Assembly: GCF_001953865.1 (NCBI RefSeq)
Contig: NZ_MQUQ01000003.1
Location: 137,917 to 201,916, forward strand
DNA length: 64,000 nt
DNA from: Amycolatopsis coloradensis
GTDB lineage: Bacteria > Actinomycetota > Actinomycetes > Mycobacteriales > Pseudonocardiaceae
Direction of reading: 5' to 3'
Shown here: positions 10,523 to 23,384 of the stretch, one piece after another
How positions within the stretch are numbered: the first letter of the stretch is position 1
How the letters are laid out: each line of letters begins with the position of its first letter
Translations under genes and position numbers: made by a program
Notes under the pieces: model-generated
What the model was told of the DNA's origin: nothing
What the model saw: the letters and a program-made list of their open reading frames with translations, nothing else
The model's database searches: none

Positions 10523-11488
10523 GTGGCCGACTTCGACCGACGTACCGCGCTCAAGGGCGGCCTGACGGCGAGCGCCGTCGGGCTACTGGGGACAGCGACG
10601 ACTTCCGCCGCCGCCGCGGCGCCCGGGGCAGTACGAGAACCGACGATCCACGCCACGGCGGCCTGGGGTGCCCGGCCGCCGAACGGGGTGATCGAGGTGC
10701 AGAACCACAAGCCGACGTACATCGTCGTGCACCACACCGTCGAACCCGGCAACGTCACCGACTACACGCTCGAACACGCCTACTGGGCCTCGCGTTCGAT
10801 CCAGAACTTCCACATGGACACGCGGGGCTGGGTGGACAGCGGCCAGCAGTTCACGAACAGCCGCGGCGGGCACATCACCGAGGGCAGGCACCGCAGCCTG
10901 GAGATCCTGCGTGGCGGGACCCGGCACGTGCTCGGCGCGAATGTCGGCAACAACAACAGCACCTGTATCGGGATCGAGAACGAGGGCCTCTACAGCAAGG
11001 AAGACGTCACTCCGGCGCTCTGGGACTCGCTGGTGAAGATGGTCGCGTACATCGCTTCGCAGTACGGGATCTCGCCGGAGTTCATCAAGGGGCACCGGGA
11101 CTTCAACTCGACCGAATGCCCGGGGACCGTGCTGTACGACCGGCTTCCGGAACTGCGCGCCGAGGTCGGGAAACTGCTCGGCTCCGCGTCACCGAAGGTC
11201 GACCTGCCCCAGTGGCCGCTGCTCAAGCCCGGCGACACCGGACCGCGAGTGCGGATGGCTCAGGAACTCCTGCGGGCACGCGGGTTCGCCGTCCCGGCCG
11301 ACGGCGTGTTCGGAGAGTCCACAAAGGACGCCGTCGCCGAGGTCGCGGCCAGGAACGGACTGGAGCGCGACGCCTGCGGCGCGACCGTGGCGACCGACGA
11401 GACCGGGTTCCTCGGCTCCGACATCTGGCCGCTCATCGTCGGGTCGGGCACTGATCCGCGGGCGCTGAAAGCACGACTCGCCGGCTGA
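10523..11488 (+). CDS. Tat-exported N-acetylmuramoyl-L-alanine amidase with peptidoglycan-binding domain
   Basis: Secreted cell-wall hydrolase or peptidoglycan-recognition amidase. The N-terminus has a twin-arginine motif DRRTALKGG, a hydrophobic segment and an Ala-rich cleavage region. The amidase_2/PGRP domain follows: YIVVHHT with the first zinc His, and a GHRDFNSTECPG block with the other ligands. Near the C-terminus a peptidoglycan-binding domain reads GDTGPRVRMAQELLRARG. GTG 10523 is chosen because GGGAG lies 8 bases upstream and this puts the Tat motif at the very N-terminus; ATG 10505 is an alternative. The end overlaps the convergent MFS gene by 56 bases. Confidence 0.85.
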   Translation: MADFDRRTALKGGLTASAVGLLGTATTSAAAAAPGAVREPTIHATAAWGARPPNGVIEVQNHKPTYIVVHHTVEPGNVTDYTLEHAYWASRSIQNFHMDTRGWVDSGQQFTNSRGGHITEGRHRSLEILRGGTRHVLGANVGNNNSTCIGIENEGLYSKEDVTPALWDSLVKMVAYIASQYGISPEFIKGHRDFNSTECPGTVLYDRLPELRAEVGKLLGSASPKVDLPQWPLLKPGDTGPRVRMAQELLRARGFAVPADGVFGESTKDAVAEVAARNGLERDACGATVATDETGFLGSDIWPLIVGSGTDPRALKARLAG

Positions 11489-12587
11489 ACAGCAGTGGCA
11501 GGAGCACCACGAAGGCGGCGCACCAAGGAAGCAGGGACGTTCCCAGCGGCAGCAGCACGCCGCCGACGAGCGCTCCTCCCGCGACGGCGCCGTTCCAGGC
11601 CGCGATCGTGAGCGACTGGGCGGCGTCGGCCGTGGGGCCCGCGATCAGCGCGGTGACGGCCTGGAAAGCGGTGGGCGCGCCACCGAACGCCAGCCCCCAC
11701 AACGCGGCGGCGAGCAGCACCAGGCCGTGGACGCCGTCGCTGAGTCCCATGAGGACGATGGCGGCGCCCGTCAGCCCCGTGCAGACCATCAGAACGACGC
11801 GCGGGCGGTGGTCGAGCGCGGCACCGACGGCGACCAGCCCGCCGACCGTGGCGCAGCCGAACACCAGCAACGCCGCGCCCAGCATCCCCGCCACGTCCAT
11901 CCCGGCGAGGACCGGGCCGATGTAGGTGTAGGCCACGTTGTGCCCCAACGAGAACAACGCCACCGTCGCCAGCACGGGACGCATACCCGGCAGCCGTGAC
12001 GCGGCCAACGGGCGAGTGGGGCCCGCCGGTTCCCCGGGTAGGGCGGGCACCGCGACGAGCACCCACACCAGCAGCGGCACGGTGATCAGCGCCATCGCGG
12101 CGAACGCCCAGCGCCAATCGGCCAGTTCACCGAGCGCGGTACCGGCGGGCACGCCGAGGGCGAACCCGATCGGGGTGCCCGACATGGCGACGGCCAGTGC
12201 GCGCCCGATGAGCGCCGGTGGGGCGAGGCGCATCGCGTAGCCGGCCACGAGCGACCACATCACCCCGGTCAGCGCGCCGGAAACGACCCGCGCGGCCAGG
12301 ATCAGCGGGTACGACGAGGACACCGCGATCAGCAGGTTGGTCACCAGGAAACCCACGATCAACGCCAGGAGCAAGCGTTTGCGCGACACCCGGAGGGTCA
12401 TCGTGGTGAGCGGGATGGCGGTGAGCGCGGCGGTGATCGCGTAGACCGTCACCAGCTGCCCGGTCGCCGACGGGGAGACGCCCAGATCCGCGGACATGCC
12501 CAGCAGCAGCCCGGCGGGCAGCACTTCGGTGAGGCAGCCGAGGAAGACCGTCGTCGTCAGCGCGAGCAGTGCCGGGAGGGGCAGCAT
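11433..12587 (-). CDS. MFS transporter (DHA1-like drug/metabolite exporter)
   Basis: Twelve-helix major facilitator of about 384 residues, similar in pattern to the AraJ/YdhP/Cml class of proton-driven exporters. The N-terminal half has the usual LGVSPSATGQLVTVYAITAA segment followed by SRKRLLL, the loop-2/3 basic motif. ATG 12587 is preceded closely by GAGGA. It converges on the amidase and diverges from the M1-like gene. Its substrate is unknown. It is about 4 kb from the CDPS gene and could export a cyclodipeptide, but separate strands and intervening genes make that only a possibility. Confidence 0.8.
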   Translation of the reverse strand: MLPLPALLALTTTVFLGCLTEVLPAGLLLGMSADLGVSPSATGQLVTVYAITAALTAIPLTTMTLRVSRKRLLLALIVGFLVTNLLIAVSSSYPLILAARVVSGALTGVMWSLVAGYAMRLAPPALIGRALAVAMSGTPIGFALGVPAGTALGELADWRWAFAAMALITVPLLVWVLVAVPALPGEPAGPTRPLAASRLPGMRPVLATVALFSLGHNVAYTYIGPVLAGMDVAGMLGAALLVFGCATVGGLVAVGAALDHRPRVVLMVCTGLTGAAIVLMGLSDGVHGLVLLAAALWGLAFGGAPTAFQAVTALIAGPTADAAQSLTIAAWNGAVAGGALVGGVLLPLGTSLLPWCAAFVVLLPLLFSRRVVLSAPADQCPTRR

Positions 12588-12761
12588 TCCTCGACGATCT
12601 CTTGCCTGGCGCGGCGCGGGTAGTCCCGGGCGGGTATGCCGTGGGGTTATCGGCGACAGGCCAGGGATAACCCGGCGGCATGACGGGCTGGCAGTGCCGC
12701 GCGCGGCGCGGGCGCCCGCACGATGACCGGGCACCCTCCCCCGTAGAGAGAAGGCCCGTTC

Positions 12762-14219
12762 ATGACCGTGCGGATTCGGTGGCAGGAGCCACTGTGCACC
12801 GCGTTGCTCGCCACCACGATGATCGGCACCTGCCAGGCCCAGGCGGCGGCGCGACCGGCACCCGGCAGTGACGGGTACGTGCACGTCTCACCCGACGGCA
12901 CCGTCCTCGGCGCCGATCCTTACTACCCGAAGGACGGCAACGGCGGTTACGACGTCGACAGATACTCGCTCGCGCTGGACTACTCGCCGTACTCGACACA
13001 GTTGAGCGGCAAGGCGACGATCACCGCGACGGCCACCCAGGACCTCAGCCGGTTCGACCTCGACCTGCGCGGTCTCACCGTGCGCTCGGTCAGCGTCGAC
13101 GGGGTCGCCGCGACGTTCCGGCGGGCGGGCGAACACGAGCTGGTGATCACCCCGCGGACCCCGCTGGCCGAAGGTACGCGGTTCACCGTGGTGGTCGGCT
13201 ACGACGGGCGGCCGGAGCCGATCGGCACGGCGCGGGGACGCGTCGGCTGGCTGGCCACCCCCGGCGATTCCGCCGTGGCCACCGGCCTGCCGCGTTCGGC
13301 GATGACCTGGTTCCCGGTCAACAACACCGAAGCCGACAAGGCCACCCTGCACGTCTCCGTCACCGTCCTGGACGAATTCTCCGTGCTGGGTAACGGTTCT
13401 CAGATCTCGGACGTTCCCGCGGGCGCCGGACGGCACACCGTCACCTTCTCGGAGGACACCGCCCTCGCGCCGAGCACGACGATGCTCGGCATCGGACGCT
13501 GGGAGGTCGAGAGGATCACACTTCCCGGTGGCCGGACGGCGATCAACGCCTACCACCCGTGCGCCGTCGACAAGCGGAAGATCGGCGGCAAGCTGCCCGA
13601 GGTACTGGAGTTCCTCACCGGGAAGTTCGGCGACTACCCGCAATCCACGGCGGGCGGGCTGTTCCTCGACCGCGCCCTCGGCTATACGCACGGCGCCCAG
13701 ACCCGGCCGGTGTACGGCCGCACGGCCACCGTCGCCGATCTGGTGTACGCCACCGCGTACCAATGGTGGGGAGCCGGCGTGAGCGGCAAGATGTGGCGCG
13801 ACGCGCTGATGCCCGAATCCATCGCGCGGTACGCGGTGTGGTTGTGGGACGAGGCCAAGACCGGCGCCGACCTCGACCGGCGCTACCGCGACCTGGTGGC
13901 AAAAGTGAGCGGGGACGCCGGATTCTGGGCGCCGAAGCTCACCGATCCTGGCAAGGGGACCGAATTCGCGCCGACCACCAAGGCGGTGCTGATGGTGCAC
14001 GCGCTGCGCCGTCTGATCGGCGACGACGCGTTCTTCCAGATCATGGCGGGCTTCCCGATGATCAACCCGCAGGGCAACCAGAACTGGCACGACTTCGAAC
14101 TCTACGTCTCCGCGATGACCCAGCTCGACCTCGGCGAGTTCAACCACGCGTGGCTCTACGGCACGGTACGGCCACCGGACGAGCACCTCTACCCCGGGCC
14201 GTTGCGCCCGTCCCGATGA
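12762..14219 (+). CDS. Secreted M1-family aminopeptidase homologue with destroyed active site
   Basis: Exported protein of 485 residues with an N-terminal signal sequence (cleavage near QAQAAA) and the full M1 layout seen in the two paralogues at 20073 and 30699. The zinc motif HExxH is replaced by YATAY (residues 329-333). The GAMEN-equivalent glutamate is lost (THGAQ at 309-313 against SLETQ), and the Tyr near the C-terminal HALRR block is missing. The third ligand position is still Glu352. It therefore cannot be an ordinary zinc aminopeptidase. The frame is intact and has a good GAGAAGG ribosome site before ATG, so it is probably expressed as a pseudoenzyme, perhaps in binding peptides. 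Confidence 0.85.
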   Translation: MTVRIRWQEPLCTALLATTMIGTCQAQAAARPAPGSDGYVHVSPDGTVLGADPYYPKDGNGGYDVDRYSLALDYSPYSTQLSGKATITATATQDLSRFDLDLRGLTVRSVSVDGVAATFRRAGEHELVITPRTPLAEGTRFTVVVGYDGRPEPIGTARGRVGWLATPGDSAVATGLPRSAMTWFPVNNTEADKATLHVSVTVLDEFSVLGNGSQISDVPAGAGRHTVTFSEDTALAPSTTMLGIGRWEVERITLPGGRTAINAYHPCAVDKRKIGGKLPEVLEFLTGKFGDYPQSTAGGLFLDRALGYTHGAQTRPVYGRTATVADLVYATAYQWWGAGVSGKMWRDALMPESIARYAVWLWDEAKTGADLDRRYRDLVAKVSGDAGFWAPKLTDPGKGTEFAPTTKAVLMVHALRRLIGDDAFFQIMAGFPMINPQGNQNWHDFELYVSAMTQLDLGEFNHAWLYGTVRPPDEHLYPGPLRPSR

Positions 14220-14247
14220 GGACTCCCGCCCGGGCGACGTGACCCGA

Positions 14248-15240
14248 TCATCCGTCGTCCGGGCGGGGCCCTCGAGAGTCCAGATATCGGGCGTAGACCG
14301 GTGCCGTCCTCGCTTCGGCCCAATACGCTTCGACCACGGCCGCGAGCAGTTCCGCCTGCCGCCCCGCCACGAAGGTCTCCCGGTTCCAGGCGAGAATATG
14401 CCTGCGCGGCAACACATCCCCGCGCAGCGGCCGGGTCACCAGGCCGAGGTTCCGCGGATCGCAGATCGGCTGCGAAAGCCCGATCGCGCCCGCCCGGACC
14501 ACCAGCAGCGCCACCTGCTGCGAAGTCACCTGATGGCTGACCGACGGGCTGAAGCCGTGCCGCGCGCAGGTTTCCGTGAAGTACCTGGTGAACGTGGTCG
14601 CCGACGAGTCGGACACCATCACCCACGATTCGTCCCGCAGCTCGCTCAAGTCGATGATCTCCTTGTGCGCCAACGGGTGGAACTCCGGCAGCAGGACGAA
14701 GGTCGGCTCGGTCACCACCACCGCGGTGTCCACACTCGCGGGGATTTCGAGCTCGTGTCCCGGATAGTCCTTGACCAGCCCCAATTCCGCGCGTCGCTGT
14801 GCCAGCAGCGGCAGCAGCCGCTCGGGGTGGTCGTCGTGCACGACCTGCACCTCGGAGACCTCCGGCCACAACCGGGTCACCAGTGACGGCAGGCGCGCGA
14901 CCAGCGCGCTGGCCACCGCGACCACCCGGACGACGTCGGGCGGGCCGCTGGGGCAGACGCGCTGCTCGATGTCTTCGAGCAGGTTGTCCAGCTGTGGCAG
15001 CAAAGCGGCAATCCGGCGCAACAGCAACTCGCCCATCGGCGTCGGTGTCACGCCACCCTCGCCCCGATCGAACAGTTGGTAGCCCAGCATGTTCTCCAGC
15101 CGTTTGAGCTGCGCGGACACCGCGGGCTGGGTGACGCCGAGAGCGATCGCGGCACGGGAAAGGCTGCCCGTGTCCGCGATCGCCCGCATCACCCGCAGGT
15201 GGTGAACATCCAGCTGTACGACGTCGAACTCCCTTGTCAC
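14248..15240 (-). CDS. LysR family regulator coupled to the NCS1 permease
   Basis: LysR-type regulator of about 330 residues. Its N-terminal winged helix reads HHLRVMRAIADTGSLSRAA and TQPAVSAQLKRLE, followed by a two-lobe co-inducer domain. Start GTG 15240 overlaps the TGA of the upstream permease by four bases (GTGA), so it is co-translated with the permease and CDPS operon. Open frame further upstream lies inside the permease gene and is not the start. It probably senses the product or substrate of the CDPS/permease pair, by analogy with other LysR genes inside metabolic operons. Confidence 0.88.
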   Translation of the reverse strand: MTREFDVVQLDVHHLRVMRAIADTGSLSRAAIALGVTQPAVSAQLKRLENMLGYQLFDRGEGGVTPTPMGELLLRRIAALLPQLDNLLEDIEQRVCPSGPPDVVRVVAVASALVARLPSLVTRLWPEVSEVQVVHDDHPERLLPLLAQRRAELGLVKDYPGHELEIPASVDTAVVVTEPTFVLLPEFHPLAHKEIIDLSELRDESWVMVSDSSATTFTRYFTETCARHGFSPSVSHQVTSQQVALLVVRAGAIGLSQPICDPRNLGLVTRPLRGDVLPRRHILAWNRETFVAGRQAELLAAVVEAYWAEARTAPVYARYLDSRGPRPDDG

Positions 15241-16550
15241 ATACGGGTTTTCGCCCCGTCGGAAGAAGTCATCGCCACGGAAACCGATCCGGCCGTGGTC
15301 CGTCTGCCGAGAATAATATACAGGAGAAAGGCGCCGAGAACGGAATTCACCGTGGGAATTCCCCACGGCAGCCAAATTCCCACCGCGGCCCCGGCGACCC
15401 AGCAGATCAGCGCGACGGGAACCCACGCCGGGCAATCCGGCGGCAACTCCCCGGACGCGCGCGTGGCCTCAAGATCCGGTTTCCAGCGCCGGACCACGTA
15501 GTACTCGGCGATAACCACCCCCGCCACCGGTGGCGTGAGCACGCCCACCCAGGTCAGGAAGGTGGTGAAGTGATCGAGGATGCCGACCGCGGAGAGCACC
15601 GTGCCGAGACCGCCGAGCAGCAGGGTCGCGGCGGTGCGGCCGAGGCGCCGGGACAGCAGCACCTGCACGGTGTTCACGAGGCCGAGTGAGGAGGAATAGA
15701 GGTTCCAGTCGTTGATCTTCAGGATCGCGGTGACCAGGATCAGCGTGCCGAGCACCCCGGACGACGAGGTGATGATCCCGACCACGTCCGCGCTTTTCGC
15801 CGCGTGCGCGAGCAGCACCCCGATCAGGCCGATCAGGTACTGGCCGAGGGTGATGCTGACCAGGGTCTGCTTCACGACGTCGGCCGCGGTCCGGTTGAAC
15901 CGGGTCATGTCCGGGGTCATGATCGCGCCCATGATGAACGCGCCCGCCACCAGCGTGGTGCCCTGTGCCAGCGACATCGACGGTCCCGGCGGCGGTTCCG
16001 CCATCAGCGCGGGCAGCGAATGGCCGCCGAGCGCGGCGATGATCGAATACCCGGCCAGCGCGAGGAAAGCGGGCACCGTCAGATACGCCGTCCAGGCCAT
16101 CGCGTGGAAGCCGAACACGACGATGGCGGTGACCAGCGCGCCGCCCGCGAGCGCCCACACCCACACCGGCGGACCACCCATCAACGCGTGGAGACCGTGC
16201 GCGAACACGTCGTTCTGCACGCCGAACCAGCCTGCCAGACTCAGCGTCATGAGCAGCCCGACCAGCGATGATCCACCGGTACCGAACCCGGTCCAGCGCG
16301 CGAGCACCGAGGTGGACAGCCCTTCCCGGGTGCCGGCGATGCCCATCAGGATGGTGATGATCTCCAGCAGCACCGAGCCGATCGTGATGGCCAGTACCGC
16401 GTCCCAGAAGGTCATGCCGAAGCCGAGGACGGCGCCGAGCAGGAACTGGTGAAACGAGGACACCTGCCCGAAGCGTTGCAGCGCGACGGAAACCCAGGAG
16501 TAGCGGCGTTCGGCGGGTACCCTGCGCAGCGAGAAGTCGTCGTGTGCCAC
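15237..16550 (-). CDS. NCS1-family nucleobase permease (CodB-like)
   Basis: Membrane transporter of 437 residues with about twelve hydrophobic segments. It matches the nucleobase:cation symporter-1 family (cytosine/purine/allantoin permeases). Family-type blocks include the GAVLGFGMTFWDA region of TM1, the mid-protein GAIMTPDMTRFNRTAADV and the TM8-9 region ILKINDWNLYSSSLG. GTG 16550 is the start, three bases after the CDPS stop, so it is in the same operon. Its cargo may be a nucleobase, or a cyclodipeptide in this setting: a diketopiperazine is a small planar cyclic amide. The latter is inference only. Confidence 0.82.
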   Translation of the reverse strand: MAHDDFSLRRVPAERRYSWVSVALQRFGQVSSFHQFLLGAVLGFGMTFWDAVLAITIGSVLLEIITILMGIAGTREGLSTSVLARWTGFGTGGSSLVGLLMTLSLAGWFGVQNDVFAHGLHALMGGPPVWVWALAGGALVTAIVVFGFHAMAWTAYLTVPAFLALAGYSIIAALGGHSLPALMAEPPPGPSMSLAQGTTLVAGAFIMGAIMTPDMTRFNRTAADVVKQTLVSITLGQYLIGLIGVLLAHAAKSADVVGIITSSSGVLGTLILVTAILKINDWNLYSSSLGLVNTVQVLLSRRLGRTAATLLLGGLGTVLSAVGILDHFTTFLTWVGVLTPPVAGVVIAEYYVVRRWKPDLEATRASGELPPDCPAWVPVALICWVAGAAVGIWLPWGIPTVNSVLGAFLLYIILGRRTTAGSVSVAMTSSDGAKTRM

Positions 16551-16553
16551 GCC

Positions 16554-17297
16554 TCACTCCACCCGTTCCGGGACAGCCTGTTCGAGAACGACGAAGCCCT
16601 GTCCCCGCAGTGGCCGCCAGGAGAGTTCGCCGCGGTAGAGCCGTTCGAGGAACCCGACCCGCTGGTGATAGGCGAACACGGAACTGCCGACACCGGCCAC
16701 GGCCACGGTGCCGACGAACATCGGCAACTCGGCGAGGAAGTAGCGGACCGCGCTGCGCAACTGGTCACGCGTGGGGTGTTCGCCTTCGGGCAGCCGCCGG
16801 TCCAGCACCCAGCCCGTCGCGCCGAGACACTGCTCGGCGAACTCCGGGTCGGTGGCGAACCGTTGGTGTGCCTCGGAAAGCAGGCCGAGGTAGACACGGT
16901 CGGTTTCGAGCACCGCGGCGTCCAGGATCAGCGTGTGCGGATCCGACGGACACACCTGCCGCAACGCGCGGACGATCTTGTTGCGCGTGTAGTTGCCTTG
17001 CCGCTGTGCCTTCTGCGCGGCGCGGACCGGGTCGTAGCCGAGCGCCTCCATGGTGAACGCCGACGGCCCGTCCGGGACGAAGAAATGAAAACCTCGAAAG
17101 GCCGACATGGCCCAGCGGGCGAGATCGGCGATACGGTCCACCGTGAAATAGCTGTTGAACGGGCTGATGCCGACGCAAACGTGCTCGGCTCGCGCCAGCG
17201 GATCGGCGCAATGCTCGGTGAGCGGCAGTGGTCGCAGCAAGACGGCTCCTGGTTCGCGGGATATGCGGGAGAAGAGGCGTCGATCGAACGTAGCCAC
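16554..17297 (-). CDS. tRNA-dependent cyclodipeptide synthase (AlbC-like, NYQ-type)
   Basis: Cyclodipeptide synthase of 247 residues, which joins two aminoacyl groups taken from charged tRNAs into a diketopiperazine. The family signature is clear: GISPFNSYF with nucleophile Ser45 and Asn48, basic tRNA-binding helices near 92-113 (RAAQKAQRQGNYTRNK), YFLAELP with Tyr186 and Glu190, and Tyr210-His211. The spacings Ser45-Tyr186 (141) and Tyr186-Tyr210 (24) equal those of AlbC (Ser37, Tyr178, Tyr202). All catalytic residues are present, so it should be active. It heads an operon with the NCS1 permease and a LysR gene, and is divergent from a second LysR. Amino-acid specificity cannot be read. The start is GTG 17297 with a weak ribosome site. 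Confidence 0.88.
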   Translation of the reverse strand: MATFDRRLFSRISREPGAVLLRPLPLTEHCADPLARAEHVCVGISPFNSYFTVDRIADLARWAMSAFRGFHFFVPDGPSAFTMEALGYDPVRAAQKAQRQGNYTRNKIVRALRQVCPSDPHTLILDAAVLETDRVYLGLLSEAHQRFATDPEFAEQCLGATGWVLDRRLPEGEHPTRDQLRSAVRYFLAELPMFVGTVAVAGVGSSVFAYHQRVGFLERLYRGELSWRPLRGQGFVVLEQAVPERVE

Positions 17298-17407
17298 GCC
17301 CCGGCGGTCCGGGTATTGCCGGTAAATGTTGTCACCGGGTTATAGGAAATTACGGATCTCGACTTTCGGAGGTGCCGGACACGGACGGAAGCGCGGTATA
17401 CGGAGGC
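17298..17407. promoter_or_regulatory. Divergent promoter region between CDPS and LysR
   Basis: This 110-base gap must hold both promoters. On the plus strand TTGTCA (17329-17334) with a 16-base spacer to TACGGA is a possible pair for the LysR gene. On the minus strand TATAAC in the same AT-richer patch could be the -10 of the CDPS operon. The shared AT-rich patch at about 17325-17357 is where a LysR would be expected to bind. Motif matches are weak. Confidence 0.35.
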
Positions 17408-18361
17408 ATGGAGATTCAGGTTCGGCATCTTCGCGTGATCTGTGAGATCGCTTCCTCCGGCAGTCTCAACCGTGCCGCGGCCGGCCTGGGGCTCGGGCAG
17501 CCCGCGCTCAGCCACCAGTTGCGCCGGATCGAGCGGATGGTCGGCGGCCCGCTGTTCCACCGCGACCAGCACGGGGTGCGGCCCACCGAACTCGGCTCCC
17601 TCATCCTGCGGCGGGCGAGGGCGATCGTGCTCACCTTCGACGAGCTGGAGCACGACTTCCACCGCCAGGAACCCGTGACGGGCGAATCGCTCCGAATCGG
17701 CTGGAACGACAGCGCCATCACGAGTTCGCTGCTCGACGGACTGCGCGACCTGCGGCCGAGCGAACCGTTCCGCACGCGGGCGGACACCTCGCGCACCCGG
17801 CTGCTGGCGCAGGTCGCGAACCGCGGCATCGACCTCGCGCTGATCATGATCTGCGGCGGACGCGGCCTGCCGGTGCCGCCGGAGGTGCGGACCGTGACCT
17901 TGGCCAGTGAGCCGTCGTTCGTCGCGATCCCCGCCGGGCACCCGCTCGCCGGTGAGGAGGAGATCGAACTCGCCGAACTGGCCGGGGAGGACTGGATCGT
18001 GTCGAACGGGGGCGACGGCTGCCGGGTGGTGTTCCGCGAAATGTGTCTCGCGCACGGTTTCGACCCCCGGATCACGCACGACGTCGACTTCGACACCGCG
18101 CGGGAAGACCTTGTCAGCGGCGGGTACGGCGTCGGGCTGGTCCAGCCGACCCGGCCACCGTCGGACGGCCTGGTGATCCGGCCGCTGGCGGGTGCGCCGA
18201 TGTGCGTGCGGCACGTGCTCGCCTGGCGCGAGGACGGCCCGTGCGCGACCGGCGTCCCGGAACTCGCCCATGAGGCGAAGGCGGGATATTGGCGGCTGGC
18301 CGACCGGACGGCGCCGTACCGGACCTGGCTGCATCGCCACGGCAGGCTGACGCCTCGATAA
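17408..18361 (+). CDS. LysR family regulator, divergent from the CDPS gene
   Basis: LysR regulator of about 317 residues. The N-terminal HTH reads RHLRVICEIASSGSLNRAA and GQPALSHQLRRIERM, followed by the effector domain. It starts at ATG 17408 just after GGAGG. LysR proteins commonly control the divergent neighbour, so the CDPS operon is the likely target. Its sequence is clearly different from the LysR at 14248, so the locus has two distinct sensors. A rhodanese gene follows after about 90 bases. Confidence 0.88.
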   Translation: MEIQVRHLRVICEIASSGSLNRAAAGLGLGQPALSHQLRRIERMVGGPLFHRDQHGVRPTELGSLILRRARAIVLTFDELEHDFHRQEPVTGESLRIGWNDSAITSSLLDGLRDLRPSEPFRTRADTSRTRLLAQVANRGIDLALIMICGGRGLPVPPEVRTVTLASEPSFVAIPAGHPLAGEEEIELAELAGEDWIVSNGGDGCRVVFREMCLAHGFDPRITHDVDFDTAREDLVSGGYGVGLVQPTRPPSDGLVIRPLAGAPMCVRHVLAWREDGPCATGVPELAHEAKAGYWRLADRTAPYRTWLHRHGRLTPR

Positions 18362-18452: not shown

Positions 18453-18803
18453 ATGCTGCCGTTGATCACTCGTACGGAACTGCTCTCCCTGATGGAGGCC
18501 GGAACGGTGGTCGTGGTCGACACGATGCCGGTCGCCTATTTCGACAAGGAGCATCTTCCGGAAGCACGGAACATTCCGGGTTTCCCGTATGAACAGGCCG
18601 CCGAATTCACCGACCGCCTGGCGGCGTCGGTGCTTCCGGACAAGGCCGCCGCGATCGTCGTCTATTGCGCGAACACGCCGTGCCGCAACAGTGAGTTCGT
18701 CGGACGGCGCCTGCTGGAACTCGGGTACACGAACGTCCGCAAGTACCGCGAAGGCATCGAAGACTGGGTTTCGGGCGGCTTGCCGACCCACTGTTCGTCC
18801 TAA
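18453..18803 (+). CDS. Single-domain rhodanese-like protein
   Basis: Small cytoplasmic rhodanese domain of 116 residues, the fold that carries sulfur as a cysteine persulfide. The active-site loop reads YCANTPCRNS with probable catalytic Cys72 and a second Cys77 followed by Arg78. ATG 18453 is preferred because GGAAGGGG precedes it; an upstream ATG at 18414 lacks this. It lies between the LysR and a secreted thioredoxin on the same strand and could be co-expressed. The sulfur donor and acceptor are unknown. A link to the CDPS cluster is possible but unsupported. Confidence 0.8.
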   Translation: MLPLITRTELLSLMEAGTVVVVDTMPVAYFDKEHLPEARNIPGFPYEQAAEFTDRLAASVLPDKAAAIVVYCANTPCRNSEFVGRRLLELGYTNVRKYREGIEDWVSGGLPTHCSS

Positions 18804-18833: not shown

Positions 18834-19274
18834 TTGTCCAAGTACCAACGGTTCGTCTGCGTGCTGGCCGGTGTGCTGGCGCTCGTCACCGGTGTCGGCG
18901 CCGGTGTGGCATCGGCCGCGCCGTCGCCGTCGGCCGAGAACGTGGTCACGGTGACGTCGGCCAACTACGCCGAAGTCATGAACATCTCGAAGCAGAAGCT
19001 GGTCATCATGGACTTCGGCGCGACGTGGTGCCCGCCGTGCCGTCAGATGAAGCCGGTGATCGAACGGCTCGCCGCGGAATACGGCGGCCGGTTCCTGCTC
19101 GGCGAGGTCGACGTCGACCAGAGCCGGGACCTGTCGAGCCGATACAACATCCGCTACCTGCCGACGCTGGTCGGTGTCCGCAACGCCGCCGAGCTGCCGT
19201 CCTCGCGGAACGTCGGCTACCCGGGTGAGGCGCGGCTGCGCGCATGGATCGACGCCCAGCTGGCCAAGGGCTGA
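18834..19274 (+). CDS. Secreted thioredoxin-fold protein
   Basis: Exported thioredoxin of about 146 residues with active site WCPPC (Cys66, Cys69). A clean signal peptide, hydrophobic at about residues 7-25 and ending GVASAAP, fits a TTG start at 18834. GAAGGAG lies 6 bases before TTG. The GTG at 18804 would put charged residues before the signal and overlaps the region just after the rhodanese stop. As an exported WCPPC protein it probably reduces or exchanges disulfides at the cell surface. It sits 30 bases after the rhodanese gene. Confidence 0.85.
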   Translation: MSKYQRFVCVLAGVLALVTGVGAGVASAAPSPSAENVVTVTSANYAEVMNISKQKLVIMDFGATWCPPCRQMKPVIERLAAEYGGRFLLGEVDVDQSRDLSSRYNIRYLPTLVGVRNAAELPSSRNVGYPGEARLRAWIDAQLAKG

Positions 19275-20072: not shown

Positions 20073-21515
20073 ATGCGCAGCCGAGTCCCCGCCGCCGGCC
20101 TGATTCTGGGCGTCGTCGGCGCCCTGATTATCGGTTGCAGCGTCGATGACCCCCCGGCCGCTCCCCCTCCGCCGCCGCCGATGAACCCGGCGCCGGGCGC
20201 TTCGGGCGCGGGCGACCCGTATTACCCGATGGACGGCAACGGCGGTTACGACGCGATCGAATACCAGGTCGGGATCACTTACGACCCCGCGAAGGGGCGG
20301 CTCGACGGCGACACCACGGTGATCGCGAAAGCGACCCAGGACCTCAATCGGTACAACCTGGACTTACGCGGCTTGACGGTCCAATCCGTCGAAGTGGCGG
20401 GAAAACCGGCGAAGTTCGCTCGTGAGGGCGAATTCGAGCTGGTGGTGACCCCCGCCGAGCCGATCCGGAACGGGACCACCTTCCCCACGAAGGTCGTCTA
20501 CGGCGGCGACCCGTCGGCGACCCCGAAAGCGGGCGGCAGCGAGAACGGCTGGCAGAAGTCGAAGGACGGCGGCGCGTTCATCGTCGGCGAGCCGCATTCG
20601 GCGTCGTTCTGGTATCCCGTCAACGAAACCCCGCGTGACAAGGCGATGTTCACCCTCACCGCCCGGGTGCCGGACGGCTGGATCGTCATCTCGAACGGCC
20701 GCGAGATCCAGAAGACCTCGGCGAACGGCTGGTCCACGACGTCCTGGCAGGAACGCACGCCGGTGGCGGCCTATCTGACCACGGTGGCGATCGACAAGTT
20801 CACCGTCGACCGGATGGCCCTCCCGGACGGGACGCCGCTGGTCAACGCGTACGCGCCCGGCGCGGAAGACCGGCGCGACACCGGCAGGCGGCTGCCCGAG
20901 ATCATCGGTTTCCTGACCTCGAAGTTCGGGCCGTACCCGGTGGACGCGGCGGGCGGGATCTACCTGGACGAGGACATCCACTTCTCGCTGGAGACCCAGA
21001 CCAGGCCCACCTACGCGAAATGGGCCGACTTGATCACCGTCGTGCACGAAACCGCACACCAGTGGTTCGGCGATTCGGTGACCCTGAATTCGTGGTCCGA
21101 CATCTGCCTCAACGAATGTCTGGCGTCGTACGCGCAATGGCTGTGGCAGGAATCGCGGGACGGCCAGAACCTCGACGACCGTTACCGCGCCGCCCTCGAG
21201 ATCATGCGGGGAAGCACGGACTTCTGGGCGCCGAAACTGGTCGGGATGGGGGCCGGGCAGGAATTCCACAGTGTCTACGACAAGGGGATCCTGGCCATCC
21301 ACGCGCTGCGGCGGAAGATCGGCGAAGGGGCGTTCGCGCGGCTGCTGAAGGAGTGGCCGGCGGCCCATCGGAACGCCAACGCTTCCTGGGCGGATTTCGA
21401 GGCGTTCACGATCAAGCTCGCCGAGCAGGACCTGCGGCCGTTCTTCGACGCCTGGTTCCACAGCACGGTGCTCCCTCCGGACGCCGAACTGCTCCCGGGC
21501 ACCCTGCGAGGCTGA
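20073..21515 (+). CDS. M1-family metallopeptidase, lipoprotein
   Basis: Lipid-anchored zinc aminopeptidase homologue of 480 residues. The N-terminus is a lipoprotein signal with lipobox IIGC (Cys22), then a Pro-rich spacer. Active-site motifs are intact: HETAH (residues 325-329) with third zinc ligand Glu348 in LNEC, and the exopeptidase Glu307 in SLETQ. This M1 form lacks the large helical C-terminal domain of classic aminopeptidase N. ATG 20073 has no purine-rich ribosome site in front; the sequence there is the complement of the neighbour's. The mRNA may therefore be leaderless. Confidence 0.88.
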   Translation: MRSRVPAAGLILGVVGALIIGCSVDDPPAAPPPPPPMNPAPGASGAGDPYYPMDGNGGYDAIEYQVGITYDPAKGRLDGDTTVIAKATQDLNRYNLDLRGLTVQSVEVAGKPAKFAREGEFELVVTPAEPIRNGTTFPTKVVYGGDPSATPKAGGSENGWQKSKDGGAFIVGEPHSASFWYPVNETPRDKAMFTLTARVPDGWIVISNGREIQKTSANGWSTTSWQERTPVAAYLTTVAIDKFTVDRMALPDGTPLVNAYAPGAEDRRDTGRRLPEIIGFLTSKFGPYPVDAAGGIYLDEDIHFSLETQTRPTYAKWADLITVVHETAHQWFGDSVTLNSWSDICLNECLASYAQWLWQESRDGQNLDDRYRAALEIMRGSTDFWAPKLVGMGAGQEFHSVYDKGILAIHALRRKIGEGAFARLLKEWPAAHRNANASWADFEAFTIKLAEQDLRPFFDAWFHSTVLPPDAELLPGTLRG

Positions 21516-21817: not shown

Positions 21818-23014
21818 CTAGTGGCGGGGAGCGGGGTAGTCCGGCAGGTCGATCCCGTTCACCACGTCCCGCATCCTCCGCGACGCCAGCGCGGCGATCG
21901 GTTTGAGCCGCATCGCCCGCATCGTCAGGTACCGCATCCGCAGGGCCGTCCGCGACTTCGCGAAGATCGTCTCCGCGTTGGCCCGCCCCATCGCCTGCGT
22001 GTTCTCGACGAACTCGCGCATCACCGTCTCGTACCGCTTGAGCCCGGTGCCGAGGTCGGCGGCGAGTTCCCCGGCGAGGACGTACGCGCCGACGAACGCC
22101 AGGCTCGTGCCCTGCCCGGAGAGCGGCGAAGGGCAGAAGGCGGCGTCACCCAGCAATCCGATCCGGCCGCGCGACCAGGATTCCATGATCACCTGGGCGC
22201 ACGAGTCGAAGTAGAAGTCGGGGGCCTCGTCCATCCGTTCCAGCAGCCAGGGCGCCTCCCACGCCATCCCGGCGGCGAACCCGCGGACCAGCGCTTTCTG
22301 CGCCTGGACGTCGCGATAGTCGTAGTCGACGTGCTCCGAGGCGAACCCGAAGTAGGCCATCGCCTCGTCGCCGTCACGAAGGGCGCGGATCCCGGCGGAC
22401 CGGCCGACGTCGTCGAAACCGACCGCCCAGTCCCGCAGGCCGAGCCGGTTCGGCACGCGGAAGAACGCCAGGTACGCGCCGAGGTGCCGCACGTACTCCG
22501 ACTCCTCGCCGAACGCCAGCGCCCGCACTCCCGAATGCAGCCCGTCCGCCCCGATGACCACGTCGAACGTCCGTCGCGCACCACTGGCGAAGGTGACGTC
22601 GACGCCGTCTGCCAGTTCGTCCAGCGCGGTGATCCGGTCGCCGAAGACGTACTCCGTCTGCTCCCTGGTCGCCTCGTACAGCACGTCGGTCAGGTCGCCG
22701 CGCAGGATCTCGATCTCGGCGATGACACCGTCACCGCCGAAGTCGTCGGCACGGATGGTGGCCTTCGTGCGGTTTCTCCGGTCGACGAGCGTCTCGCCCT
22801 TGGTGTCGGTGCACGCCGCGCGGATGCGTTCGTCCAGGCCCATGCGGCGGGCGACCTCCTTGGCCGTTCCGCGCAGGTCGACAGCCTGACCGCCGGGGCG
22901 CAACGACGGCGCGCGCTCCACGACGGTCACGCGGAAGCCGTATCTGGTCAGCCAGAACGCCAGCGCGGGACCGGCGACACTCGCACCGGAGATGAGGATC
23001 TTCTTGTCGGCCAT
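21818..23014 (-). CDS. FAD-dependent monooxygenase (class A)
   Basis: Single-component flavoprotein hydroxylase of about 398 residues, PHBH/TetX-like. The N-terminal dinucleotide-binding motif reads ISGASVAGPALAFWL, then ERAPSLRPGG, and the second FAD motif is GLLGDAAFCPSPLSGQG. Such enzymes use NAD(P)H and oxygen to hydroxylate small aromatic or polyketide compounds. ATG 23014 gives the Rossmann motif at the N-terminus; upstream frame to 23035 is possible. It is divergent from mhuD. No biosynthetic cluster surrounds it, so a detoxifying role is as likely as a biosynthetic one. Confidence 0.85.
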   Translation of the reverse strand: MADKKILISGASVAGPALAFWLTRYGFRVTVVERAPSLRPGGQAVDLRGTAKEVARRMGLDERIRAACTDTKGETLVDRRNRTKATIRADDFGGDGVIAEIEILRGDLTDVLYEATREQTEYVFGDRITALDELADGVDVTFASGARRTFDVVIGADGLHSGVRALAFGEESEYVRHLGAYLAFFRVPNRLGLRDWAVGFDDVGRSAGIRALRDGDEAMAYFGFASEHVDYDYRDVQAQKALVRGFAAGMAWEAPWLLERMDEAPDFYFDSCAQVIMESWSRGRIGLLGDAAFCPSPLSGQGTSLAFVGAYVLAGELAADLGTGLKRYETVMREFVENTQAMGRANAETIFAKSRTALRMRYLTMRAMRLKPIAALASRRMRDVVNGIDLPDYPAPRH

Positions 23015-23075
23015 TCTCCGGAAGGTCCCACGCATCACATCGCGGCGCAAAAGAGTTTCGCCGTAGGGTGGCGGC

Positions 23076-23384
23076 ATGGCAGTCGTGAAGATCAACGCGA
23101 TCGAGGTCCCCGAAGGCGCAGGCCCCGAGCTGGAAAAGAGGTTCGCCGCACGGTTGCACGCCGTCGACAACCAGCCCGGCTTCCTCGGCTTCGAACTGCT
23201 CCGCCCGGTCTCCGGCGAGACGCGCTACTTCGTCTACACGAAGTGGGAGTCCGAAGAGGCGTACCAGGCTTGGGCGTCCGGCCCGGCGCGCGAGGCGCAC
23301 GCGGGCGAGCGCGCGAAGCCGGTCTCCAGCGGCGCGAACCTGTTGGAATTCGAGGTCGTCCAGGCTTCGAAGCCGGGTGAGTGA
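23076..23384 (+). CDS. mhuD: Haem-degrading monooxygenase MhuD
   Basis: ABM-fold haem oxygenase of 102 residues. It matches M. tuberculosis MhuD (Rv3592) along most of its length: VVKINAIEVP, PGFLGFELLRPV and NLLEFEVV. The haem-site residues Asn7, Trp66 and His75 are at the same numbers as in MhuD. It would open haem and release iron without CO, giving mycobilin-type products. Its 3' end overlaps a sirtuin-like gene by 8 bases, so the two are translationally linked. No iron box is evident in the short divergent gap upstream. Confidence 0.9.
   Translation: MAVVKINAIEVPEGAGPELEKRFAARLHAVDNQPGFLGFELLRPVSGETRYFVYTKWESEEAYQAWASGPAREAHAGERAKPVSSGANLLEFEVVQASKPGE

Follow-up and report, generated by a model that had tools for sequence, protein, structure and literature searches.

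What a cyclodipeptide synthase (CDPS) and an NCS1-family permease might do together is the question raised by a 64,000-nucleotide stretch of Amycolatopsis coloradensis DNA (hereafter the window), which lies within a 724 kb contig (genome size 9.05 Mb). The minus strand carries the CDPS gene, then the permease gene and a gene for a LysR-type regulator (LysR1); a second LysR gene (LysR2) is divergent, and genes for a rhodanese and a thioredoxin lie on the plus strand. An original prediction, made from the DNA letters, had singled out the CDPS-NCS1-LysR arrangement and proposed that the unit might re-import or export a diketopiperazine, unmodified and serving as a signal, or pair one with a nucleobase. 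Our analysis makes it nearly certain that the CDPS, the NCS1 permease, the rhodanese and the thioredoxin form one functional unit, and suggests a conserved, undescribed actinobacterial small-molecule system in sulfur or thiol chemistry.

A conserved gene module

A scan of named genomes, among which the best matches of the window CDPS are from Amycolatopsis, gave 26 loci, and in all 26 a CDPS gene is followed by an NCS1 gene on the same strand; this search for the gene order, which the original prediction had proposed, bears out the functional coupling of the two genes as more than chance. The presence of further genes was counted on four locus sets, using profiles that were built from module members and are thus partly circular for those members. 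Where the module CDPS adjoins an NCS1 permease, the rhodanese (42/42) and the thioredoxin (42/42) are always matched, and the same 42 loci carry at least one LysR in 37 cases, an MFS transporter in 30, an M1-like protein in 29 and a thioredoxin reductase (TrxR) in 7. LysR was not matched near loci L101, L111-L113 and L146, and the two LysR profiles cross-match. Many of the 42 loci are close relatives, and seven of them (L101, L110-L113, L115, L129) entered from permease regions because a CDPS was seen there; since the flanks vary (about 4-9 kb), absences of accessory genes give lower bounds on their presence. In the remaining sets, NCS1, rhodanese and thioredoxin are found in none of three sister CDPS loci (L139-L141), rhodanese and thioredoxin in none of 24 control CDPS loci (taken from 37 other CDPS places; LysR matches in 2), and rhodanese or thioredoxin of the module kind in none of 29 CDPS-free permease loci. 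The latter are those lacking a CDPS among 40 regions drawn from 130 permease places, and one place of similar score (G132:C1:668115, 704 bits) falls outside this 40-region sample.

A further draw, in which 392 Streptomyces genomes were searched with a CDPS from a metal island, yielded 18 places in 16 genomes, comprising 10 with CDPS, NCS1, rhodanese and thioredoxin, 7 metal/redox islands and 1 of neither kind. One of the ten (L195) is on the same contig as L025, leaving nine new module loci, in which the genes form a compact CDPS-NCS1-rhodanese-thioredoxin-subtilase run, followed by TrxR in 8 of the 9. Rhodanese and thioredoxin therefore accompany the pair in 51/51 CDPS-NCS1 loci from Amycolatopsis, Lentzea, Actinomadura, Streptomyces and others. 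Seen from the permease, a CDPS lies within 1.5 kb of each of the 30 best-scoring copies in 297 genomes of the family. Across 80 Amycolatopsis genomes, the module CDPS occurs in 26 (any CDPS in 28), and an ortholog of the rhodanese (at least 73% identity, 179 bits) occurs in exactly the same 26, the other rhodaneses reaching at most 103 bits; the match between the two genome lists was made by eye.

The association persists although the order of the genes varies, at least five arrangements having been seen. Amycolatopsis, Lentzea and others have CDPS-NCS1-LysR1, from which LysR2, rhodanese and thioredoxin diverge; Actinomadura and Streptomyces have CDPS-NCS1-rhodanese-thioredoxin; L110, L115 and L129 have NCS1-M1-thioredoxin-CDPS-rhodanese and a divergent pair of LysRs; in L111-L113 the CDPS diverges from NCS1-rhodanese-M1-thioredoxin, and in L101 from NCS1-rhodanese. 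In a second lineage of Amycolatopsis, the permease and the rhodanese run through a single open frame, uninterrupted by a stop, at all eight loci (L142-L149), an internal start for the rhodanese being possible. The unit named by the original prediction is thus real in its CDPS-NCS1-LysR core but was drawn too narrowly, and the rhodanese, putatively secreted thioredoxin, peptidase-like protein, TrxR (which is not in the window) and MFS transporter that it overlooked move the likely chemistry towards sulfur and thiols.

The cyclodipeptide synthase and its relatives

The window CDPS scores 263 bits against PF16715 (cut-off 27; profile positions 3-220 of 220) and 262.6 bits against TIGR04539 (cut-off 45; 2.6e-78). 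The six catalytic residues that had been named for it are all present at AlbC spacing (S45, N48, Y186, E190, Y210 and H211, eight positions above Ser37, Asn40, Tyr178, Glu182, Tyr202 and His203 of AlbC), and the SNYEYH set recurs in the aligned module CDPS rows (the nine further Streptomyces rows lie outside this check). The predicted length of 247 residues probably starts too early: in the window and 17 other Amycolatopsis loci, the GTG start is in frame in 2/18 rows, compared with 18/18 for a TTG after AGGAG, so that the true start is probably TTG 17240 and the protein about 228 residues long.

Product pockets were compared at the P1 and P2 positions given in part of the CDPS survey PMC5816076, and the outcome was divided. 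Module CDPS rows read CGFP[AGSTMIL][ML]FF at P1 and [AS]WV[RGHNKQ][QH][VI]x at P2, and the nearest P1 rows in Table 2 of that survey, which covers only its new enzymes, are VGYPSIFF (Cys) and LGLPWLFF (Pro). The former is the only Cys row of the table and, by product, CDPS102 (cCG/cCC); a further Pro row, CGHPWLLY, is by product CDPS100 (cPP) (PMC5816076). Sister CDPSs L139-L141 have CGYPS[LF]FF, with L139 (CGYPSLFF) matching the Cys row at 6/8 positions, and other sisters have CGFPGLFF or CGFPWLFF. A rule by which a small residue at position 119 marks cysteine was weakened by the metal-island CDPSs, which have Trp there, and by the more distant relative L196, which has a proline-row motif.

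As to genomic surroundings, of the 14 other CDPS loci that were examined as the nearest, every one except L141 lies among metal or thiol-redox genes (13/14). Islands on Streptomyces plasmids contain heavy-metal P-type ATPases, TauE, CcdA, BlaI/M56 and CopC, and the CDPS locus of genome G582 contains SCO1 and a redoxin; chromosomal Streptomyces islands were labelled by similarity, three of them (L184, L191, L192) by BlaI, M56 and SCO1-/redoxin-like genes without a P-type ATPase. CDPSs beside MerR/P-type ATPase or BlaI/M56/SCO1/redoxin genes were seen at L174, L176, L177, L179-L182, L184, L191, L192, L139 and L140. A tree of 56 CDPSs places the module on one side of a branch (94/84, unstarred) and does not unite the metal/redox-island CDPSs in one group. 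At a further locus among the 13, on a plasmid of Streptomyces mirabilis P16B-1, a strain from Ronneburg creek-bank soil, genes for a cysteine-synthase-family protein (PALP domain), an MFS transporter and a CDPS have overlapping ends (L175, 5558-8774), and a second CysS/MFS-like pair lies at 14109-15434. Among module loci, that of Actinomadura geliboluensis (L023, 2069-4616) has genes for a CobW-type GTPase and ribosomal protein S18 immediately upstream of the unit; such a pair is a feature of Zur (zinc) regulons.

The NCS1 permease

The permease belongs to PF02133 (92.2 bits, cut-off 23.5; profile positions 6-429 of 440; 4e-26), its sole match in the PDB at E 0.001 is CodB (7qoa, 118 bits), and its score of 192 bits against the CodB model NF008241 stays under the cut-off of 326. 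The residue roles known for CodB (part of PMC9379551) allow its pocket to be compared with the 24 aligned CDPS-linked permeases. The two aromatics that sandwich the substrate (Trp108 and Phe204 in CodB) are kept as W108 and F205 in 24/24, and Gln105 is replaced by Leu in 24/24. At the Na2 site, Thr278 is Lys in 24/24 and Thr279 is Ile or Val in 24/24; Asn275 is replaced by Ala and Asn282 mostly by Trp. Assignment as a CodB-type cytosine permease was consequently rejected on Gln105 and the Na2 pair. The lysine at the Na2 position suggests sodium-independent transport, presumably by analogy to ApcT-type carriers. Because 27 of the 29 permeases from CDPS-free loci have the lysine too, it was rejected as a CDPS-specific trait and, as a property of the wider subfamily, is uninformative on CDPS products in particular.

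The CDPS-free relatives, which are 46-66% identical to the window permease (tblastn), delimit the group. In a tree of the 24 CDPS-linked and 29 CDPS-free permeases, built by a quick method with no bootstrap and with own-genome outgroups on very long branches, the CDPS-linked copies occupy one side of a branch (SH-aLRT, the approximate likelihood-ratio support value, 99; 1 change), with L114 and L116 as the nearest CDPS-free rows. Together with the 30 best-scoring permeases described above, this placement of all 29 relatives outside the CDPS-linked clade answers the objection anticipated by the original prediction, namely that permease homologues might occur in close relatives without a CDPS. 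Six proteins encoded beside three CDPS-free permeases are of hydantoinase/oxoprolinase (PF05378/PF01968) or S-Me-THD (PF06032/PF20906) type, and a tblastn search with five of these proteins placed a HyuA- or S-Me-THD-like gene near 23 of the 29 (L091-L100, L102-L104, L114, L116, L120-L125, L127 and L128). The same search found such genes in 0/51 module loci and 0/24 control CDPS loci. The module would also tie a group of NCS1 carriers to ring amides.

Partner proteins

The rhodanese is a single-domain protein (56.3 bits against PF00581, cut-off 22.2), and its loop YCANTPCRNS, which includes the cysteine, is found in the window copy and in the eight fused copies. The thioredoxin has a PF00085 domain, and the seven copies inspected share a WC[GP]PC motif and an N-terminus that resembles a signal sequence by eye. 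At L146 (5043-6497, genome G048), a 484-residue protein with two thioredoxin stretches stands at the place of the single thioredoxin.

The M1-like protein of the window lacks the HExxH-18-E zinc motif and reads YATAYQWWG at this site, so that activity as a peptidase was ruled out. Among the 29 loci that encode the pseudo-M1 protein, 28 show the QWWG form without HExxH at this site (that of L020 was not read); stray HE..H stretches elsewhere in the proteins of L014, L026 and L027 do not fit HExxH-18-E. In L110 the permease and pseudo-M1 share one frame, although pseudo-M1 may have a start of its own within it, and the same holds for L129 (3245-6051, genome G134), where a frame change in the assembly splits the permease over two frames and the partner genes are present. 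A similar fusion considered for L115 was discarded, as its NCS1 gene lies in another frame. A subtilase takes the place of pseudo-M1 in 12/42 loci and in all 9 new Streptomyces loci, and was found in 0/24 control CDPS loci and 0/29 CDPS-free permease loci; the L142 copy shows DTG, HGT and GTS stretches by eye. One or the other, never both, occurs in 50/51 module loci, L146 having neither. The window has an M1-type paralogue on either side of the unit, that without the zinc motif at 12762-14219 and M1b, with HETAH, at 20073-21515; M1b also adjoins the unit, with HETAH kept, in nine named Amycolatopsis loci (L002-L010).

Proposed mechanism and alternative explanations

Gene content, co-occurrence, in-frame fusions, the lost CodB ion and base contacts and the lost M1 zinc motif provide the sequence-based foundation for a mechanism that we consider about evenly balanced between right and wrong: the NCS1 permease would carry a cysteine-containing cyclodipeptide, on which rhodanese would act inside the cell and thioredoxin outside. 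Transport of the CDPS product by the permease is probable, and the diketopiperazine import or export put forward by the original prediction is the best fit, with an unmodified signal as one possible role for the compound. Cysteine in this product is also rather probable, and is favoured because the module is rich in thiol and sulfur proteins and the nearest CDPS loci are nearly all (13/14) in metal or thiol-redox surroundings. We infer the cysteine, the substrate identity, the direction of transport and the sulfur or redox cycle as follows. The CDPS would convert two aminoacyl-tRNAs into a cyclodipeptide most likely containing at least one cysteine, such as cyclo-Cys-Cys or cyclo-Cys-X. The permease, apparently recruited from a subfamily for hydantoin-type ring amides, would move the thiol or disulfide diketopiperazine through the membrane; the most likely direction is inward, and sodium is probably not required. 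On the outer side, the compound would meet the secreted thioredoxin and the pseudo-M1 protein or subtilase; on the inner side, sulfur would be removed or transferred, or the disulfide reduced, by the rhodanese located at or on the C-terminal end of the permease, and by TrxR where present. The MFS pump may export the cyclodipeptide, and the LysRs may sense it. More tentatively, the cysteine cyclodipeptide could diffuse and shuttle electrons or sulfane sulfur from one side of the membrane to the other, being used outside by a dedicated secreted thioredoxin, taken back by an NCS1 permease with a rhodanese at its C-terminal end and reset by TrxR; if true, it would be a small-molecule counterpart of membrane thiol relays such as CcdA/DsbD and a new use for CDPS products.

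Several observations weigh against the cysteine mechanism. The thioredoxin is predicted outside and the rhodanese inside, so the two would not meet directly, and NCS1 carriers normally import, so that an exporter must be assumed, for which an MFS transporter is available in only 30/42 loci. No TrxR was found in the window, and with 7/42 loci and 8/9 Streptomyces loci (15/51 overall) it belongs to a minority of modules. The P1 motif alone leaves cysteine and proline undivided in these sequences: the sister motif CGFPWLFF matches the proline row LGLPWLFF at 6/8 positions, and L196 has CGHPWLLY, the proline (cPP) row exactly. The cysteine-synthase-family gene belongs to a sister locus outside the module, and a PALP domain is no proof of cysteine synthesis. 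The tblastn search left six CDPS-free permease loci out of 29, namely the more distant L105-L109 and L126, without a HyuA- or S-Me-THD-like gene, and the consulted literature yielded no assay of an enzyme of the module CDPS clade.

The same pocket ambiguity is one reason to consider an ordinary diketopiperazine, proline-containing or hydrophobic, that acts as a signal or antibiotic and is moved by the permease, with rhodanese and thioredoxin as stress-protection passengers. Sister P1 motifs resemble proline rows, LysR regulators suit the sensing of small molecules, and efflux, most often by MFS, is known near CDPSs (PMC5767969); the passenger role is hard to hold because rhodanese and thioredoxin are present in 51/51 loci through changing orders and because permease and rhodanese share one open frame, and we regard this explanation as unlikely. 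A metal-binding thiol cyclodipeptide would instead belong to a zinc or copper chelator system, in which the permease recovers the chelator once it is loaded or spent, and the redox proteins do no more than hold it in the reduced state. Most of the nearest CDPS relatives do lie in copper/heavy-metal or redox islands, and the CobW and S18 genes upstream of the unit at L023 resemble a pair of Zur regulons. However, NCS1, rhodanese and module-type thioredoxin are all missing from the 13 CDPS loci in metal/redox islands, the module regulators are LysRs, and neither a metal ATPase nor a metal sensor was noticed in module loci, though no systematic search was aimed at them; the chelator system has, in our estimate, a small chance of being correct.

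Two further explanations start from the permease. One supposes that it imports a sulfur-containing, thiohydantoin-like ring as a sulfur source, the cyclodipeptide being a separate regulator of this process. Related permeases near S-Me-THD and hydantoinase domains and the rhodanese in one frame with the permease fit this scheme, but the 0/51 count for HyuA- and S-Me-THD-like genes means that the ring-opening enzymes are missing from module loci, and it appears very unlikely. The other, import of a nucleobase to be joined to the diketopiperazine, appeals to the NCS1 family name and to functionalisation with nucleobases in other CDPS pathways (described in part of PMC11610984). In the unit, neither a P450 nor another coupling enzyme was seen, Leu for Gln105 and Lys-Ile/Val for the Na2 Thr-Thr pair remove the CodB contacts in all 24 permeases, and the nearest permeases outside the clade sit with hydantoinase-type genes; the nucleobase pairing of the original prediction is thus disfavoured to the point of being barely credible.

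Layout of the window

The coordinates of the unit and its flanks are given in Table 1. The close packing described by the original prediction is confirmed, with three bases between the CDPS end (16554) and the permease start (16550), and the permease stop overlapping the LysR1 start (ATGTGA, a GTGA overlap; LysR1 starts at 15240). HTH_1 and LysR_substrate domains are present in both LysRs, and ATG 17408 of LysR2 is kept in all rows of the 18-locus alignment. In the same 18 rows, the intergenic region between CDPS and LysR2 contains conserved blocks on the plus strand, GGTATTGCC at 17312-17320 and TGTCAC with GGTTATAG within 17330-17345, which are candidate LysR sites or promoters; no inverted repeats were found in 17250-17420.

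The left flank of the unit is formed by the M1-like and MFS genes. The earlier statement that none of the usual CDPS partners is adjacent stands for cyclodipeptide oxidase, P450 and methyltransferase, none of which was found adjoining the unit, and fails for the MFS class, with one gene nearby and its family within the flanks of 30/42 module loci. Farther away, a FAD_binding_3 gene at 21818-23170 may be the aromatic-polyketide-type monooxygenase reported with 13 Amycolatopsis CDPS clusters (PMC5767969).

Table 1. Features of the CDPS-NCS1 unit and its surroundings in the window
Feature	Position	Strand	Basis
MFS transporter, accessory	11433..12884	-	PF07690 4.9e-35; open reading frame bounds, true start probably internal
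M1-peptidase-like protein, HExxH lost (pseudopeptidase), signal-like N-terminus	12762..14219	+	PF17900 1.1e-6; motif; pairwise alignment with M1b
LysR-type regulator 1, GTGA overlap with permease stop	14248..15240	-	PF00126/PF03466; sequence
NCS1-family permease, CodB-like subfamily, Lys278 at Na2 position	15237..16550	-	PF02133; CodB 7qoa; alignments of 19 and of 53
Cyclodipeptide synthase (NYH type)	16554..17240	-	PF16715 2.8e-78; catalytic residues; start comparison, 18 loci; frame readable from GTG 17297
Divergent intergenic region, candidate LysR/promoter sites	17241..17407	.	Conserved blocks in 18-locus alignment
LysR-type regulator 2, divergent from CDPS	17408..18361	+	PF00126/PF03466; frame from GTG 17372, ATG 17408 likely start
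Single-domain rhodanese	18453..18803	+	PF00581 4.7e-15; fusions with permease in eight relatives; co-occurrence
Thioredoxin, WCPPC motif, signal-like N-terminus	18834..19274	+	PF00085 2.4e-20; frame from GTG 18804, TTG 18834 after AGGAG likely start
M1 peptidase paralogue (M1b), intact HETAH	20073..21515	+	PF01433 4.1e-19; membership in unit uncertain

Comparison with known systems

CDPSs have been surveyed by Gondry 2018 (PMC5816076) and Skinnider 2018 (PMC5767969), both consulted here in part. The words permease, rhodanese and thioredoxin are absent from the main text of both, and the recurrent Pfam domains in Figure 5d of the latter may include NCS1. The contexts of AlbC-like CDPSs given in part of PMC2922099 are nitroreductase, 2-oxoglutarate dioxygenase, methyltransferase and acyl-CoA ligase, and the available parts of PMC4210621 and PMC7487605 contain nothing on the module. 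No description of it was found among the matches listed for open-licence PMC literature on CDPSs with NCS1 or cytosine permeases, rhodanese, thioredoxin or copper, as judged by the listings. The recurrent CDPS-permease-rhodanese-thioredoxin unit offers a role that can be tested, in the chemistry of thiols and sulfur or of metals, and supplies a candidate cyclodipeptide transporter, and its fusion lineages and compact Streptomyces runs are suited to experiments.

On the transport side, the module permease shares PF02133 and the two substrate-sandwiching aromatics (W108, F205) with CodB (cytosine) and Mhp1 (aryl-hydantoins), and differs from CodB in the five pocket and ion-site replacements, in its link to a CDPS and in the rhodanese carried in frame in one lineage. 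The permeases of hydantoinase and S-Me-THD operons belong to the same subfamily and mostly share Lys278, whereas their loci are without CDPS, rhodanese or module-type thioredoxin.

On the enzyme side, CDPS102 and CDPS100 (PMC5816076), compared here by their pockets, have Pro at P1 position 67 and an aromatic residue at 200 as in module CDPSs; the module P1 is identical to neither, and its P2 ([AS]WV) is unlike both. The closest kin are the metal/redox-island CDPSs of Streptomyces plasmids and chromosomes (about 50% identity, P1 CGFP[GW]LFF), which are surrounded by thiol and copper genes and, unlike the module, stand beside MerR or BlaI-type genes without NCS1, rhodanese or module-type thioredoxin. 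The pathways of AlbC (albonoursin), Rv2275 (mycocyclosin) and YvmC (pulcherriminic acid) share the enzyme family and NYH catalytic residues with the module, which also has MFS transporters in part of its loci; where an oxidase, P450 or methyltransferase might adjoin the CDPS, the module has NCS1, rhodanese, putatively secreted thioredoxin, pseudo-M1 or subtilase and, in some loci, TrxR.

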